Positions 1-6,137 of a stretch of DNA of 6,137 nt are shown here, piece by piece (positions within the stretch are counted from its first letter, which is position 1; each line of letters opens with the position of its first letter). The translations under genes and the position numbers were made by a program. This stretch comes from Candidatus Eiseniibacteriota bacterium (GTDB taxonomy: Bacteria; JAFGKV01). The notes below the pieces were generated by a model that was not told the origin of the DNA, made no database searches, and saw only the letters and a program-made list of their open reading frames with translations. Where the stretch lies: the NCBI GenBank assembly GCA_025453925.1, contig JALOPK010000203.1:1-6137 (forward strand). Reading direction: 5' to 3'.

Positions 1-2136
1 GTTGACGCCAACGGCCTGATCTGCGATGCCAAGAACCTCAACCCGGCTCCAGCGAGCACGGGCGTGGCCTGCACCGAGGTCGCTCTGAACCCGGCCGAAG
101 TGGCCGCCGCTCTGGACGACCCGACGATCTTCCCCACGCCGATTCCGGGAACCGAGGGCCCTTCCTGGATCGCCATCGGCACCGAGGGCGGCTTCCTGCC
201 TGCCCCTGTCGTGGTCCCGGCCCACCCCACCACCTGGGTCAACGACCCGACGGTGTTCAACGCCGGAAACGTCGACCAGCATTCTCTGCTGACCGCCCCG
301 GCCGAGCGGCACGATGTGATCGTCGACTTCTCACAGTTTGCCGGCCAGACCCTGATCCTCTACAACGACGCTCCAGCGGCCTTCCCGGCACGCGACCCGC
401 GCTACGACTACTACACCGGCAACGGGGACTACCGCGATACCGGCGGCGCCCCTTCGACGCTTCCCGGCTACGGGCCCAACACCCGCACCATCATGCAGAT
501 CAAAGTGGCAGGGGCTCCCGCTTCTCCATTTGACATCGGCAAGCTGCAAGCGGCATTCGCCCACAATGCTGCCGAGTCCGGCGTGTTCGAGAGCGGGCAG
601 CACCCGATCATCGTCGGGCAGGGCGAGTACAACTCGGCCTACGGCACCACGTTCCAGACCAACGGCCCCCGGAACGGGACCGTGCAAATCTTCGATACCT
701 CGTTGACCTTCGAGACCCTGTTATCCATCAAGAGTCCGGCTGATGACGCGCTCACCATCAACCTCAAGCCGAAGATGATCCAGGACGAGATGGGGGAGGC
801 GTTCGAGCTGGAATACGGGCGCATGAGCGGCTTCCTCGGCGTCGAGACGCCCAACGCCCAGGCGGGCCTGCAGAACATGATCCTGCACCCGTACACCTAC
901 CCGCCGGATGAGATCCTGGACGGCATCGAACTGCCGCCCGGCGTGGAAGTGAGTCCCATCGCTGCAGCGGACGACGGCACGCAGATCTGGAAAATCACCC
1001 ACAACGGGGTGGACACGCATCCCATCCACTGGCACCTCTATGACGTGCAACTGCTGAACCGGGTGGGCTGGGACGGCATCATCCGCAAGCCCCATCCGAC
1101 CGAACTGGGCTGGAAGGACACCGTCCGCGTCAGCCCGCTTGAGGACACCATCGTCGCCCTGCGGCCCATCATCCCTCAGCTGCCGCCTGAATGGGGCGGG
1201 CTGCCCAACAGCATCCGGCTGCTCGACCCGTCGATGCCCGAAGGCGAATACCTGATGGGCGCCAACACGACGCAGCGTGAGGCACTGGGCCTGCCGCTCC
1301 TCGCCTTCAACCCCGACGGCGAGCCGGTGGACATCGTCAACCACTACGTCAACTACGGCTGGGAGTACGTGTACCACTGCCACATCCTCAGTCACGAGGA
1401 GATGGACATGATGCACTCCCAGGCGGTCGGGGTGGCGCCACCAGCACCGACCTTCGTGAGTGCGGTCCGATCCGGAAGCGGGCGGACCCGGCAATACCTG
1501 GTGACCTGGATCGACAACTCGAAAAATGAGACCGCGTTCGTCGTCGAACGGCGCGTGGCCGGCTCGACCGGCGGGTGGACGATCATCGCGACCGTGCAGT
1601 CCTCGCAGCTTGGCGTGGTGCCCTACATCGACACCGGCGTCGGGCCGGGAACCGGGACGAGGACTTACATCGATCGCATCGGCAACACGAACACGCTCTA
1701 CGAGTACCGGGTGTATGCCATCAACGTGGTGGGCGACGTCTGGGATTACTCGGATCCAGCCTTCAACAACATCCCGCCCGGCGGCGGCTGGCCGACCTTG
1801 ACGCTCGCCTCGGGCGGAGGGGGCGGGGCTGTAACCCCACCGGTCGTGATAGCCCCTCCCAGCAACCTGGCGGGCAGCGCCGTGGTCAAGACCCAGAATT
1901 CAGCGACCGTCTCCCTCTCCTGGACGGACAACGCCAACAACGAAACGGGCTTCCTGGTCCAGCGCGCCTATGACGCCGGCTTCACCAGCGGCGTGGTGAA
2001 CACGACCCTCGGAGCCAATGCCACGGCACTCTCCCAGACAGTGGCGCGCCGCACGACCTTCTACTACAGGGTCCATGCCTTCAACGACACCACCCAGTCG
2101 GGCTGGTCGAACACCGTCATAGTGACCACGCCGTAA
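1..2136 (+). CDS. MofA/OmpB-like multicopper oxidase with two C-terminal fibronectin III domains (5' partial)
   Basis: The frame is open from base 1 and ends at TAA (2134-2136), so 711 C-terminal residues are visible; the start, any signal peptide and the first copper motifs lie outside the window. Residues are numbered from base 1. A cupredoxin stretch carries the typical APAERHDVIVDFS motif (about 99-111). The C-terminal cupredoxin has HPIHWH (H340, H343, H345) and HCHILSHEEMDMM with H459, C460, H461, H465 and M470. This matches the spacing of type 1, 2 and 3 copper ligands in CotA-type enzymes, with Met as axial ligand. The segment between them (NRVGWDG, ELGWKDTVRVSPLEDTIVALRP) looks like the MofA/OmpB group. 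Two fibronectin III modules follow (about 480-600 and 616-711), joined by a Gly-rich linker. Family knowledge: such proteins are exported; MofA is linked to Mn(II) oxidation and Geobacter OmpB to use of insoluble Fe(III). The substrate here is unknown. The copper ligands in view are intact, so it is probably active. The family is confident, the exact role is not. Confidence 0.9.
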   Translation, partial: VDANGLICDAKNLNPAPASTGVACTEVALNPAEVAAALDDPTIFPTPIPGTEGPSWIAIGTEGGFLPAPVVVPAHPTTWVNDPTVFNAGNVDQHSLLTAPAERHDVIVDFSQFAGQTLILYNDAPAAFPARDPRYDYYTGNGDYRDTGGAPSTLPGYGPNTRTIMQIKVAGAPASPFDIGKLQAAFAHNAAESGVFESGQHPIIVGQGEYNSAYGTTFQTNGPRNGTVQIFDTSLTFETLLSIKSPADDALTINLKPKMIQDEMGEAFELEYGRMSGFLGVETPNAQAGLQNMILHPYTYPPDEILDGIELPPGVEVSPIAAADDGTQIWKITHNGVDTHPIHWHLYDVQLLNRVGWDGIIRKPHPTELGWKDTVRVSPLEDTIVALRPIIPQLPPEWGGLPNSIRLLDPSMPEGEYLMGANTTQREALGLPLLAFNPDGEPVDIVNHYVNYGWEYVYHCHILSHEEMDMMHSQAVGVAPPAPTFVSAVRSGSGRTRQYLVTWIDNSKNETAFVVERRVAGSTGGWTIIATVQSSQLGVVPYIDTGVGPGTGTRTYIDRIGNTNTLYEYRVYAINVVGDVWDYSDPAFNNIPPGGGWPTLTLASGGGGGAVTPPVVIAPPSNLAGSAVVKTQNSATVSLSWTDNANNETGFLVQRAYDAGFTSGVVNTTLGANATALSQTVARRTTFYYRVHAFNDTTQSGWSNTVIVTTP
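1438..2133 (+). repeat. Two fibronectin type III modules at the C-terminus of the oxidase
   Basis: Two related modules follow the copper domain. Each contains a W-x-D-N-x-x-N-E-T-x-F-x-V-x-R motif (bases 1507-1551 and 1921-1965; 9 of 15 residues identical) and a later tyrosine-rich YxYRVxAxN-like strand (EYRVYAIN, YYRVHAFN). They are separated by a Gly/Pro-rich linker around 1804-1860. Codons differ at many shared residues, so this is not a recent DNA duplication. The motif is common among bacterial fibronectin III domains, so the likeness may simply be family conservation. Such modules usually serve as spacers or for binding to surfaces or polymers. Confidence 0.8.
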
Positions 2137-2285: not shown

Positions 2286-5200
2286 TCACGAAGTCGCGGC
2301 ATCCCTGGGAGCATGAGCCGCAGCGCCGGCATGAGCGCCCAGCTGGGCGTCGGTGTAGTGCTTCATGGAGATGGCTTTGGCGGGGCATTCGGCGACGCAT
2401 ATTCCGCAGCCCTGGCAGCCCCGTGGATCGATGACCGAAATGCCGTGTTCGTCCATGCGGGGCACATGATAGGGGCAGACGTGGACACAGGTGAGGCAGG
2501 CGCTGCAGCGGTCCCGGATGACAGCCGCCACGGTGCCGCTCACCCGGATTTCGCTCTGCACCAGCAGCCCCGCCGCACGGCCGGCGGCTCCCCGGGCCTG
2601 AGCCAGGCTTTCCTCGATGAACCGCGGGCTGTGAGCCAGACCGCACAGAAAGACTCCCTGGGTATGGGCATCGAGGGGGCTCAGCTTGGGATGGGACTCC
2701 ATGAAGAAGCCCTCCTGCCCCGTCGACAGCTTGAGCATGGAAGCTACCGGTTCAGCGCCGGGATGAGGACGAATGCCGCTGCTCAGGACCAGAGCGTCCG
2801 GGCTGATGCGAAGATCCATGCGGCTCGACGGGTCGAAAATGGAGACCTGAATCCTGCCGTTTTCGATCTGGACGTCCGGGGGAGCGTCCGGTTCGAAACG
2901 GACAAACACGGCGCCCAGGTCCCGAGCCTCACGATAATACTCTTCCTTAAACCCGAAGGTCCGGATGTCCCGATACAGGACATATACCGTGGCGTCCGGC
3001 TTCTTTTCAAGGAGCCGCAGGGCATTTTTGACCGCAGCCGAGCAGCACACCCGACTGCACATGGGGAATTCGTCCGAACGCGAGCCGACGCACTGAATCA
3101 TGACGGTGACATCGGGAAGCGAAAGTGAGCCGCCAAAGAAGCGCTCTTCGAATTCCAGCTGGGTCATGATCCCCGGATGATTCCCGTAAAGGTACTCCGT
3201 CGGCTCGTAGGGACGCCCACCCGTCGCGACGATGACGGCGCCGGCATCGACGGGAACAATGCGGCCGTTCTGAGCGATCCGCCCCTTGAAATCGCCCACC
3301 CCGCCTTCCAGTTGCCGGACCTCGGAGCCCAGAAAACATGTGATGTTTCGGTGGCTCCTGACGCGGAGCACCGTCTGCTCCACCAGTTTGCGGGGAGAGC
3401 CGCTCCCCGGGTTGTGGACGATCCGCCGTGCCACCCCCCCGAGCTGCAACTCCTTCTCGACCAGGGTCACGGGGATGTCCCGATCGGCCAGGGCGAGCGC
3501 GGCCGTCATGCCCGCAAGCCCCCCGCCGATGACGAGGGCCTTCTGAACCACCTGGACGGCCACGTCCTCCACGGGCTCGAGAAGCGCCGCGCGTGCGACG
3601 GCGGCTTCCACCAGGGCTTTGGCCTTCCGGGTCGCAGCCTCCGGTTCCCCGCCGTGCACCCATGAGCACTGGTCGCGGATGTTGGCCATTTCGAACAGGT
3701 AGGGATTGAGGCCTTTCTGCCTGAGGGTTTCACGAAAGAGGGGCTCGTGGGTGCGCGGGGAGCAGGCCGCCACCACCACCCGGTTGAGACCGTGGGCTTC
3801 GATGAGCTCCTTCATGCGCTCCTGAGTCTGGGTCGAGCACGAGAACTGAAAATCCTCCGCAACCACCACATGGGGCAATGCGGCCGCATGATCACGCACG
3901 GCAGCCACATCGACGACACCGGCAATGTTCCGTCCGCAGTGGCAGACGAAGACCCCCACCCGAGGCGTTTCCTCCACTTTGAAACCATCGGCTGCCAGGG
4001 CCTCCAACAGTTCCCTCGAGGTCTCAGACGCCAGATCCGTCTCCTCTGCGGCGCCGTCAGGCAGAGCCCCACCCGCCTGCACAGGCTCTGCGCCCCAGCC
4101 CACAGCATCACCGGCCGTCATTCGAAGGCAGGCTGCGGCACTGGCCGCGGCAGCACTCGCCCCCGTCACCGACTCGGGAATGTCCTTGGGACCGTCCAAG
4201 ACCCCGGCCACAAAGACTCCCTCCCGGGAAGTCAGGGTCGGCTGCTCGAGATCCGGCTCGATGAACCCGTACCGGTTCAGCTCGAGCCCGAGTTTCGACA
4301 ACAGCGGCGCCATGGCATCCGACGGCTTCATCCCGGCGGAAAGCACCACCAGGTCAAATTCCTCTTCCCGGTGCCCCATGGTGTGATGATCGTAACAGGC
4401 AATCACCAGGTTGCGGTTTTCGGGGTTTTCCACAATCTGCGACAGCATGCTCCGAACGAAGCGGACGTGCTGAATGTCGCGGGCGCGGTTCACATATCGG
4501 TCAAAATCCTTCCCCTGGGCGCGAATGTCCATGTAGTAGATGGTGGCTTCACTCCGGGCATCGTGCTCGCGCACCAGCATGGCCTGTTTCACAGCCGCCA
4601 TGCAGCAGACCGAGGAACAGAAGTTGCGGTTCCTTGCGCTGTCCCGCGAAGCGACACACTGAATCCACGCGATGCGACGCGGAATCTCCCCGTCCGAAGG
4701 CCGGCGGGGATGTCCGGCAAAAGGCCCGGCAGCCGACAGCATGCGCTCAAAATCCAGGCTGGTCACCACGTTGGGGTATCGGCCGAGGCCGTACTCTCCC
4801 GCCTGGGGCACCAGCGCCAGCTCGTACCCACCGGCCAGGATCACGGCGCCCACCGCGAGGTCCAGCTCTTCTCCCGGATCCTCGAACCGGATGGCGCCGG
4901 TGGGGCAGATCTTTTCGCAGAGCCTGCACCGCCCCTTCTGGAAGTAGATGCACGAAGCCGTGTCGATGACCGGCACCATGGGGATGGCCTGGGAATGGAC
5001 CAGGTAGACCGCCTTTCGCTTGTCCAGGGCGGCGTTGTATGGATTGGGAACGCTCTTGGGGCATCGGTCCGCGCATTGCCGGCAGCCGATGCAGAGCTTC
5101 TCGTCCACATGCCTCGGGTGGCGGCGTATGCGAGCCCTGAACCGCCCCGGCTCCCCGTCGAGATCCACGAGCTCGGACAGGGTCATGATGTGGATGTTGG

Positions 5201-5426
5201 GATGGCGTGCGCAGGCCACCATCCGGGGTGCGATCATGCAGGTCGAGCAGTCGTTGGTCGGAAAGGTCTTGTCCAGTCGTCCCATGTTGCCGCCAATGGA
5301 CTCGGAACGCTCCAGCAGATGCACGGTGATCCCCATGGCGGCAAGGTCGAGGGCTGCCTGCATTCCGGCGATGCCCCCTCCCGCCACCAGGACGGTCTCA
5401 CGGGTTGGAGTGCTCTTGTCAGGCAT
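2286..5426 (-). CDS. hdrA: Tandem HdrA-like iron-sulfur flavoprotein (two FAD modules)
   Basis: This 1046-residue protein is the FAD/Fe-S core subunit of a heterodisulfide-reductase-like complex; a canonical HdrA has about 650 residues. ATG at 5426 is preferred because GAGGGAG lies 6 bases upstream; a GTG at 5441 would add five residues but overlaps that site. Module 1 (about 11-435) has an FAD fold (GGGIAG at 16), FPTNDCSTC (C60, C63), an inserted two-cluster ferredoxin (C112, C115, C118, C122; C159, C167, C170, C174), and IQCVASRD plus CSSVCC (C257, C270, C274, C275). An Ala/Gly-rich linker spans about 436-487. Module 2 starts with the domain normally at the HdrA N-terminus (about 488-620: CHCGRN C495/C497, C530, C555 in ACSPRTHEPLF, C587). 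A second FAD fold follows (GGGLAG at 634), with IQCVGSR and CSRVCC (C779, C790, C794, C795) but no inserted ferredoxin. A two-cluster ferredoxin ends the protein (C974, C977, C980, C984; C1004, C1007, C1010, C1014). No signal peptide or membrane segment is seen, so it is cytoplasmic. Possible relatives are the long HdrA forms of deltaproteobacteria and BamE-like proteins; its electron donor and acceptor are unknown. Confidence 0.93.
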   Translation of the reverse strand: MPDKSTPTRETVLVAGGGIAGMQAALDLAAMGITVHLLERSESIGGNMGRLDKTFPTNDCSTCMIAPRMVACARHPNIHIMTLSELVDLDGEPGRFRARIRRHPRHVDEKLCIGCRQCADRCPKSVPNPYNAALDKRKAVYLVHSQAIPMVPVIDTASCIYFQKGRCRLCEKICPTGAIRFEDPGEELDLAVGAVILAGGYELALVPQAGEYGLGRYPNVVTSLDFERMLSAAGPFAGHPRRPSDGEIPRRIAWIQCVASRDSARNRNFCSSVCCMAAVKQAMLVREHDARSEATIYYMDIRAQGKDFDRYVNRARDIQHVRFVRSMLSQIVENPENRNLVIACYDHHTMGHREEEFDLVVLSAGMKPSDAMAPLLSKLGLELNRYGFIEPDLEQPTLTSREGVFVAGVLDGPKDIPESVTGASAAAASAAACLRMTAGDAVGWGAEPVQAGGALPDGAAEETDLASETSRELLEALAADGFKVEETPRVGVFVCHCGRNIAGVVDVAAVRDHAAALPHVVVAEDFQFSCSTQTQERMKELIEAHGLNRVVVAACSPRTHEPLFRETLRQKGLNPYLFEMANIRDQCSWVHGGEPEAATRKAKALVEAAVARAALLEPVEDVAVQVVQKALVIGGGLAGMTAALALADRDIPVTLVEKELQLGGVARRIVHNPGSGSPRKLVEQTVLRVRSHRNITCFLGSEVRQLEGGVGDFKGRIAQNGRIVPVDAGAVIVATGGRPYEPTEYLYGNHPGIMTQLEFEERFFGGSLSLPDVTVMIQCVGSRSDEFPMCSRVCCSAAVKNALRLLEKKPDATVYVLYRDIRTFGFKEEYYREARDLGAVFVRFEPDAPPDVQIENGRIQVSIFDPSSRMDLRISPDALVLSSGIRPHPGAEPVASMLKLSTGQEGFFMESHPKLSPLDAHTQGVFLCGLAHSPRFIEESLAQARGAAGRAAGLLVQSEIRVSGTVAAVIRDRCSACLTCVHVCPYHVPRMDEHGISVIDPRGCQGCGICVAECPAKAISMKHYTDAQLGAHAGAAAHAPRDAATS

Positions 5427-6137
5427 GATCCACTCCCTCACCGGAATCGGCTCGGTCGGTCGAAGTGGCCGGGTGCAGACTGCTCAGCCCGTCCAGCAGC
5501 GGGGCAGGATCCACCAGATGGCTCTTGAGACCTTTTCGAACGGACGCCAGCCCGAAAGCGACGGCCAGGAGCTCCGTGTAATAGAGGATGGGGATTGCGG
5601 GCGACCCGCCGGGAATCGACGATCGCCTGGAGAGCTCCGCACCCAGCAGGTCCAGATTGCCCTGACAGAGCGGACAGCACACCACGACGGCCTGGGCCCC
5701 GCTCATGCGCGCCCCTCGCAGAAGGCGTTCCACCAGCGCCAGTCCAATGTCCCGCCTGGGGATCCCGACGCTGGCCCCGCAACAGGTGGCTTTGAAGGAC
5801 CAGTCGATGGACGTGGCCCCGACAGCGCTCACGAGGCGATCCAGGTGCTGCGGATTCTCGTAGTCCTCGTAACCGGTGATCCTGGGCGAGCGAACCACCT
5901 GACAGCCGTAGTAGCAGACCACCCGGAGACCGGAAAGGTCTACAGAAACCCTTTCCGCAACGCGGACCAGCCAGGTTTCCGACGCCAGCAGTCTCGCCAG
6001 GTCCAGGACCTCGAGTTCGGGGGCGATGGACCAGGGAACGTCCACCTGCTTTTCCTCGAGCACGAGACGTGAAGTTCTCAGCCGTTTGAAGCACATGGGG
6101 CACGCCACCACCAGATCGCGACCCAGAGCCTCGGCCC
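5419..6137 (-). CDS. hdrB: HdrB-like CCG-domain subunit (5' partial)
   Basis: The reading frame is open to the window edge, so only the last 238 residues are visible. The GTG at 6111 is internal and not a real start, because the codons before it (AEALGRDLVVACPMC) continue the conserved domain. The CPMC motif (C12, C15 of the visible part) closes the first CCG domain. The second CCG domain is complete: YYGC (C78), CCGAS (C118, C119) and CPLCQGNLD (C154, C157). In HdrB these CCG domains bind the non-cubane [4Fe-4S] clusters that carry out disulfide-type reduction in the cytoplasm. Additional cysteines sit at C74 and C153. The last 40 or so residues are poorly conserved-looking and rich in Ser, Ala and Asp. 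The TGA stop overlaps the hdrA start by 8 bases, which indicates an operon with translational coupling. An HdrC partner is not in the window and could lie upstream. Related CCG subunits (BamD, glycolate or lactate oxidase Fe-S subunits) are possible, but the HdrA neighbour favours HdrB. Confidence 0.9.
   Translation of the reverse strand, partial: AEALGRDLVVACPMCFKRLRTSRLVLEEKQVDVPWSIAPELEVLDLARLLASETWLVRVAERVSVDLSGLRVVCYYGCQVVRSPRITGYEDYENPQHLDRLVSAVGATSIDWSFKATCCGASVGIPRRDIGLALVERLLRGARMSGAQAVVVCCPLCQGNLDLLGAELSRRSSIPGGSPAIPILYYTELLAVAFGLASVRKGLKSHLVDPAPLLDGLSSLHPATSTDRADSGEGVDHA
5433..5439 (-). promoter_or_regulatory. Ribosome binding site of the hdrA-like gene
   Basis: GAGGGAG on the minus strand ends 6 bases before the ATG at 5426 and lies inside the 3' end of the hdrB coding sequence. 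It decides the start: the alternative GTG at 5441-5439 shares a base with this site and so cannot use it. Its position within hdrB, together with the 8-base gene overlap, suggests coupled translation of the two subunits. Confidence 0.7.

Follow-up and report, generated by a model that had tools for sequence, protein, structure and literature searches.

A bacterial type II HdrA with iron-sulfur domains divided between two flavin modules

The hdrA locus and its provenance

The window, by which we mean the whole 6,137-nucleotide stretch of DNA analysed, is contig C221 (1-6137) in a MAG of 502 contigs (G000). It carries a gene for a double-length HdrA, an electron-bifurcating flavoprotein subunit found in anaerobes, on the reverse strand, preceded by the C-terminal part of hdrB, and a multicopper oxidase gene. 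The original prediction had the hdrA gene ending at 2367; its actual end is at 2286, and the ATG at 5426 is its likely start. This ATG lies 8 nt inside hdrB, so that the hdrB stop and the hdrA start overlap. A GTG at 5441 opens a frame of 1051 aa, and residue numbers of the double HdrA are counted from this GTG. The contig edge truncates the 5' end of hdrB, in which a single CCG motif is visible.

1-2136, forward strand: multicopper oxidase, convergent with hdrA
2286..5426, reverse strand: hdrA type II (double HdrA), likely ATG at 5426, 1046 aa
4122..5402, reverse strand: module 1, residues 14-440, TrxR-like FAD domain with inserted dicluster ferredoxin
5238..5240, reverse strand: C68 of module 1, Cys197 equivalent by alignment (role from PMC9012536)
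4872..5114, reverse strand: inserted ferredoxin of module 1, residues 110-190, 8 cysteines
2289..3965, reverse strand: module 2, residues 493-1051, CHCG domain, TrxR-like FAD domain without insert and C-terminal ferredoxin
2346..2534, reverse strand: C-terminal dicluster ferredoxin of module 2, residues 970-1032, C979-989 and C1009-1019
5419..6135, reverse strand: C-terminal part of hdrB (TIGR03288 at 96 bits, below its cut-off; PF02754)

Full-length relatives of the double HdrA were found in two Syntrophobacteraceae MAGs (82-85% identity), in Desulfoferrobacter suflitae DRH4, which has two copies (61-63%), and in a Desulfobacteraceae MAG (63%), with more distant ones in Desulfobacterales. The recurrence of the full-length frame at these identities in the Syntrophobacteraceae MAGs and in Desulfoferrobacter rules out an assembly or frameshift artefact. 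In a sample of 60 genomes taken around this assembly, fused forms also occurred in several unrelated members. No second copy of the fusion was found in the same assembly, where the only other HdrA is on C462.

Both complete proteins of the contig were 82-85% identical to Syntrophobacteraceae proteins (83% for the multicopper oxidase), and at one related locus (L026) the oxidase gene was likewise convergent with and downstream of hdrA. Close relatives of hdrA and of the oxidase gene were absent from the two compared genomes of the same genus and family, and the assembly's rpoB was just 54% identical to that of a Syntrophobacteraceae MAG. Taken together, these identities, the gene order and the absence of both genes from close relatives make it probable that the contig comes from a Syntrophobacteraceae genome and was misbinned; the alternative is a recent transfer of the whole segment. 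A plasmid origin was rejected after a PLSDB search gave no near match. It is unusual to find a large multicopper oxidase next to an electron-bifurcating operon of anaerobes; the one here has C-terminal extensions that appeared fibronectin-type by eye, and in relatives it is an open frame of ~1,600 aa.

Domain anatomy and origin of the fusion

We split the double HdrA into domains by phmmer comparison with solved HdrA chains. Residues 16-384 matched HdrA 147-508, covering the FAD domain with its inserted ferredoxin, residues 489-650 matched HdrA 1-168, the N-terminal CHCG domain, and residues 882-1046 matched HdrA 494-657, the end of the FAD domain and the C-terminal ferredoxin. On alignment to the solved chains, all HdrA parts are used, in altered order, and identity to canonical HdrA was 36-42% over the aligned parts.

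Both modules of eight double HdrAs, the window protein and seven homologues, were then aligned residue by residue with HdrA of 5ODC. In module 1 the eight cysteines of the inserted ferredoxin (C117/120/123/127 and C164/172/175/179) were present in all eight proteins. This module also has C65 and C68 as equivalents of Cys194 and Cys197, and the FAD-domain cluster cysteines C262/275/279/280; the N-terminal Fe-S domain and the C-terminal ferredoxin are both absent from it. Module 2 has the N-domain cysteines C500, C502, C535, C560 and C592, FAD-domain cluster cysteines C784/795/799/800, and both clusters of the C-terminal ferredoxin; it has no inserted ferredoxin, and the Cys197 position is gapped. 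The alignments with phmmer and 5ODC thus agree with the original prediction of a first module with FAD and insert alone, without end domains, and a second module with the CHCG domain, FAD and C-terminal ferredoxin, without insert. This division of the Fe-S domains and of Cys197 was common to 8/8 of the aligned proteins, in one of which (L011) a C-terminal ferredoxin cysteine is missing. The prediction had further held that the two modules add up to exactly one canonical set of Fe-S domains; this stood for the domains and failed for the clusters. Since the [4Fe-4S] site of the TrxR-like FAD domain is present twice, seven [4Fe-4S] clusters are predicted per double HdrA, compared to six per canonical HdrA chain. 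Equivalents of E356 and K409, the residues used as markers of bifurcating flavins, were found as E232/K285 in module 1 and E765/K805 in module 2, and were kept in both modules of all eight proteins.

An AlphaFold2 model of the double HdrA, built on an alignment of 10 rows only, had a mean pLDDT of 72 and a pTM of 0.75. In a fold search that aligned the modules singly, module 1 matched residues 149-576 of HdrA in 8RWN (Z 44.9, rmsd 2.5) and module 2 matched residues 2-640 of 5ODC (Z 42.1, rmsd 5.5-5.7 over ~536-539 residues). Both modules are therefore predicted by the model to take the HdrA fold, the higher rmsd of module 2 indicating domains positioned somewhat differently from those of 5ODC. 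Collapse of an FAD site was half of the refutation by structure prediction originally proposed; both flavin domains were uncollapsed in the model.

In HdrA dimers, Cys197 of one subunit is the fourth ligand for the N-terminal cluster of its partner (PMC9012536). In the double HdrA, module 1 alone has the Cys197 equivalent, and module 2 alone has the N-terminal domain. This complementarity, and the occurrence of the modules as adjacent separate genes in archaea, support the suggestion made from the DNA alone that the chain is a covalent, asymmetric pseudo-dimer. The reading is not new, as the same idea for fused HdrAs was published in 2022 (PMC9012536). One double HdrA chain could dimerise further.

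A hand count of the match table for 196 genomes sampled from one archaeal phylum gave 21 genomes with both modules in a single open frame, module 1 preceding module 2 in every case, and 8 with the two modules in neighbouring but separate frames, ordered likewise. Such unfused adjacent pairs lie at L031:2275-5486, L034:1-2837, G110:C14:13144-16090 and G082:C2:110852-113795. In a tree built from 48 FAD-domain core regions, one group (92/100) united the module-2 cores of every fused protein with those of the unfused archaeal genes; the module-1 cores fell outside this group and did not form one clade. This tree matches the independent origins of types II_N and II_C reported earlier (PMC12054007). 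As the halves lie in different parts of the tree, local duplication of a single HdrA is ruled out, and the separation of the module-2 group from the module-1 cores argues that two HdrA classes were joined long ago, the conclusion reached for archaea in the same survey.

Electron path and the roles of the two flavins

In the Elp-Hdr structure, both terminal domains of HdrA belong to a mobile arm, and the next stop of the electrons is presumed to be the bifurcating FAD' of HdrA', the partner subunit (PMC12350162). In solved complexes, electrons are expected to leave through the inserted ferredoxin. Mapped on the fusion, this scheme leaves the FAD of module 1 as the only one with both an opposing arm and an inserted-ferredoxin exit. 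We consider it likely that the protein is an ancient fusion of two HdrA classes that serves as its own asymmetric dimer in HdrCBA, with module 2 as the input and the module 1 FAD as the bifurcating site. From this mapping we infer the following path. The N-terminal cluster domain and C-terminal ferredoxin of module 2 would form the input arm, the N-terminal cluster being completed by C68 of module 1, and would pass electrons to the module 1 FAD much as a canonical subunit feeds its partner in the homodimer. From there, low-potential electrons would pass by way of the inserted ferredoxin of module 1 to a soluble ferredoxin, and those of high potential would travel via HdrC and the CCG clusters of HdrB to a disulfide- or trisulfide-type acceptor. 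The module 2 FAD, which has neither an opposite arm nor a low-potential exit, would probably be a relay or secondary site.

That the two flavins do different jobs, as was originally proposed, is plausible. The main rival reading is a second bifurcating site, such that both flavins bifurcate, in parallel or in series, across a larger potential drop than in a single HdrA. The E356/K409 equivalents in each module of all eight double HdrAs speak for it, and a 2025 survey has suggested two bifurcation sites (PMC12054007). Because the flavin site of module 2 is as conserved as that of module 1, including the glutamate and the lysine, two bifurcating flavins fit the residues equally well. In the known scheme, however, the second circuit would be incomplete, since module 2 is without an inserted ferredoxin as low-potential acceptor and module 1 is without an N- or C-terminal arm to feed the module 2 FAD; we regard two bifurcating flavins as unlikely. 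It is also conceivable that the enzyme does not bifurcate and, as HdrA-like proteins do in sulfur oxidisers, only serves as a conduit linking HdrCB with a carrier. Non-bifurcating HdrA homologues are known (PMC9430772), and the bare operon of Desulfoferrobacter, described below, would suit such a role. Against this, both modules retain an intact E/K pair, by which bifurcating HdrA is told apart from other forms, and the inserted ferredoxin has all its cysteines, which makes a conduit quite improbable. We favour bifurcation at the module 1 FAD with input from module 2.

In Desulfoferrobacter the operon order is hdrC-hdrB-hdrA(II), with hdrC and hdrB directly upstream, and we recognised no MvhD, hydrogenase, NADH or F420 module next to hdrA(II). 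At other loci in these genomes, MvhD-type proteins were numerous. It is a tentative suggestion that, in some Syntrophobacteraceae sulfate reducers, the bare hdrC-hdrB-hdrA(II) is a stand-alone bifurcating enzyme with divided flavin roles and a donor new for HdrABC. In sulfate reducers, DsrC would be the foremost candidate for the partner of HdrB.

Three genomes (G060, G061 and G062) had 12-19 MvhD-like matches each, often with one TGA within the match, which may reflect neighbouring genes or selenocysteine. In a Desulfobacterales MAG (L032:5441-11814), we observed a double HdrA with diverged modules and no CHCG motif, a gene that looked MetF-like by eye upstream of it, and mvhD with a MetF-like gene on the other side; a MetF-HdrA-MvhD complex is possible at this locus.

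As most working parts of the fused HdrA are single, it offers a clean test of which flavin bifurcates, and also allows electron crossing between HdrAs to be tested, which is hard in a symmetric homodimer. Desulfoferrobacter suflitae DRH4 is a named strain with two type II copies.

Comparison with known HdrA systems

All domains of the window protein are also represented in the canonical HdrA homodimer (5ODC for HdrABC-MvhAGD, 8RVU for Elp-Hdr), which consists of two identical complete chains, whereas the window protein is one chain with two incomplete halves. Fused HdrAs had been described before. Chadwick et al. (2022) reported HdrA3/HdrA4 fusions of ANME archaea with complementary loss of the N-terminal domain and Cys197, some of more than 1,000 aa and among the largest HdrA homologues, and proposed them to be their own heterodimeric partners, noting the like in Moorella (PMC9012536). 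The window protein shares the two fused HdrAs and the complementary N-terminal domain and Cys197. According to their text, the first half bears the N-terminal domain and the second bears Cys197. The window protein instead has the N-terminal domain in its second half, and so does every one of the 21 archaeal fusions of the match table (L065, L067-L085), the reverse of that text; these fusions and the ANME proteins may be different sets.

The 2025 survey named 'type II HdrA' (A3 and related classes), derived from a fusion of classes A6 and A12, in methane-metabolising archaea, with E356 and K409 both conserved in 75% of the sequences (PMC12054007). Archaeal type II HdrA has two TrxR-like FAD domains in one chain with E356/K409 in each half, the N-terminal half resembling A6 and the C-terminal half A12; the window protein shares the two FAD domains, the A6-like N-terminal half and the E356/K409 equivalents in each half. 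Class A6 has the inserted ferredoxin, no N-terminal Fe-S domain and no C-terminal ferredoxin, and cysteine by cysteine module 1 is A6-like; compared with A12, the C-terminal half has the N-domain and C-terminal ferredoxin and is without the insert. The window protein shows those defining features of type II HdrA that are open to checking. The published set is archaeal, and 14% of its genes lie in clusters adding HdrBC, MvhD, FdhB and a molybdopterin-family protein (PMC12054007); the last three are not beside the Desulfoferrobacter operons. No MvhD region appeared in our alignments, the chain ending ~20-30 residues past the C-terminal ferredoxin, and the GltD domain of type III HdrA was absent, the inserted ferredoxin carrying just a 5-residue insertion.

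Bacterial two-flavin HdrAs are known from acetogens, in the MetVF-HdrCBA-MvhD methylene-THF reductases of Sporomusa ovata and Moorella thermoacetica (PMC9430772). Like the window protein, they have an extra N-terminal TrxR-like domain and a C-terminal half without inserted ferredoxin. The Sporomusa HdrA has five predicted [4Fe-4S] clusters and the E/K pair in one flavin site only, whereas the window protein has it in both; the Moorella HdrA has an added GltD domain and three FADs, and the window protein is without GltD. A benzene-degradation paper mentioning 'two FAD' was dropped, as it concerned a different flavoprotein. The original suspicion that the architecture might not be unique was right: the double-HdrA architecture is real and already known (2022, 2025), and what is new is this bacterial member of type II HdrA.
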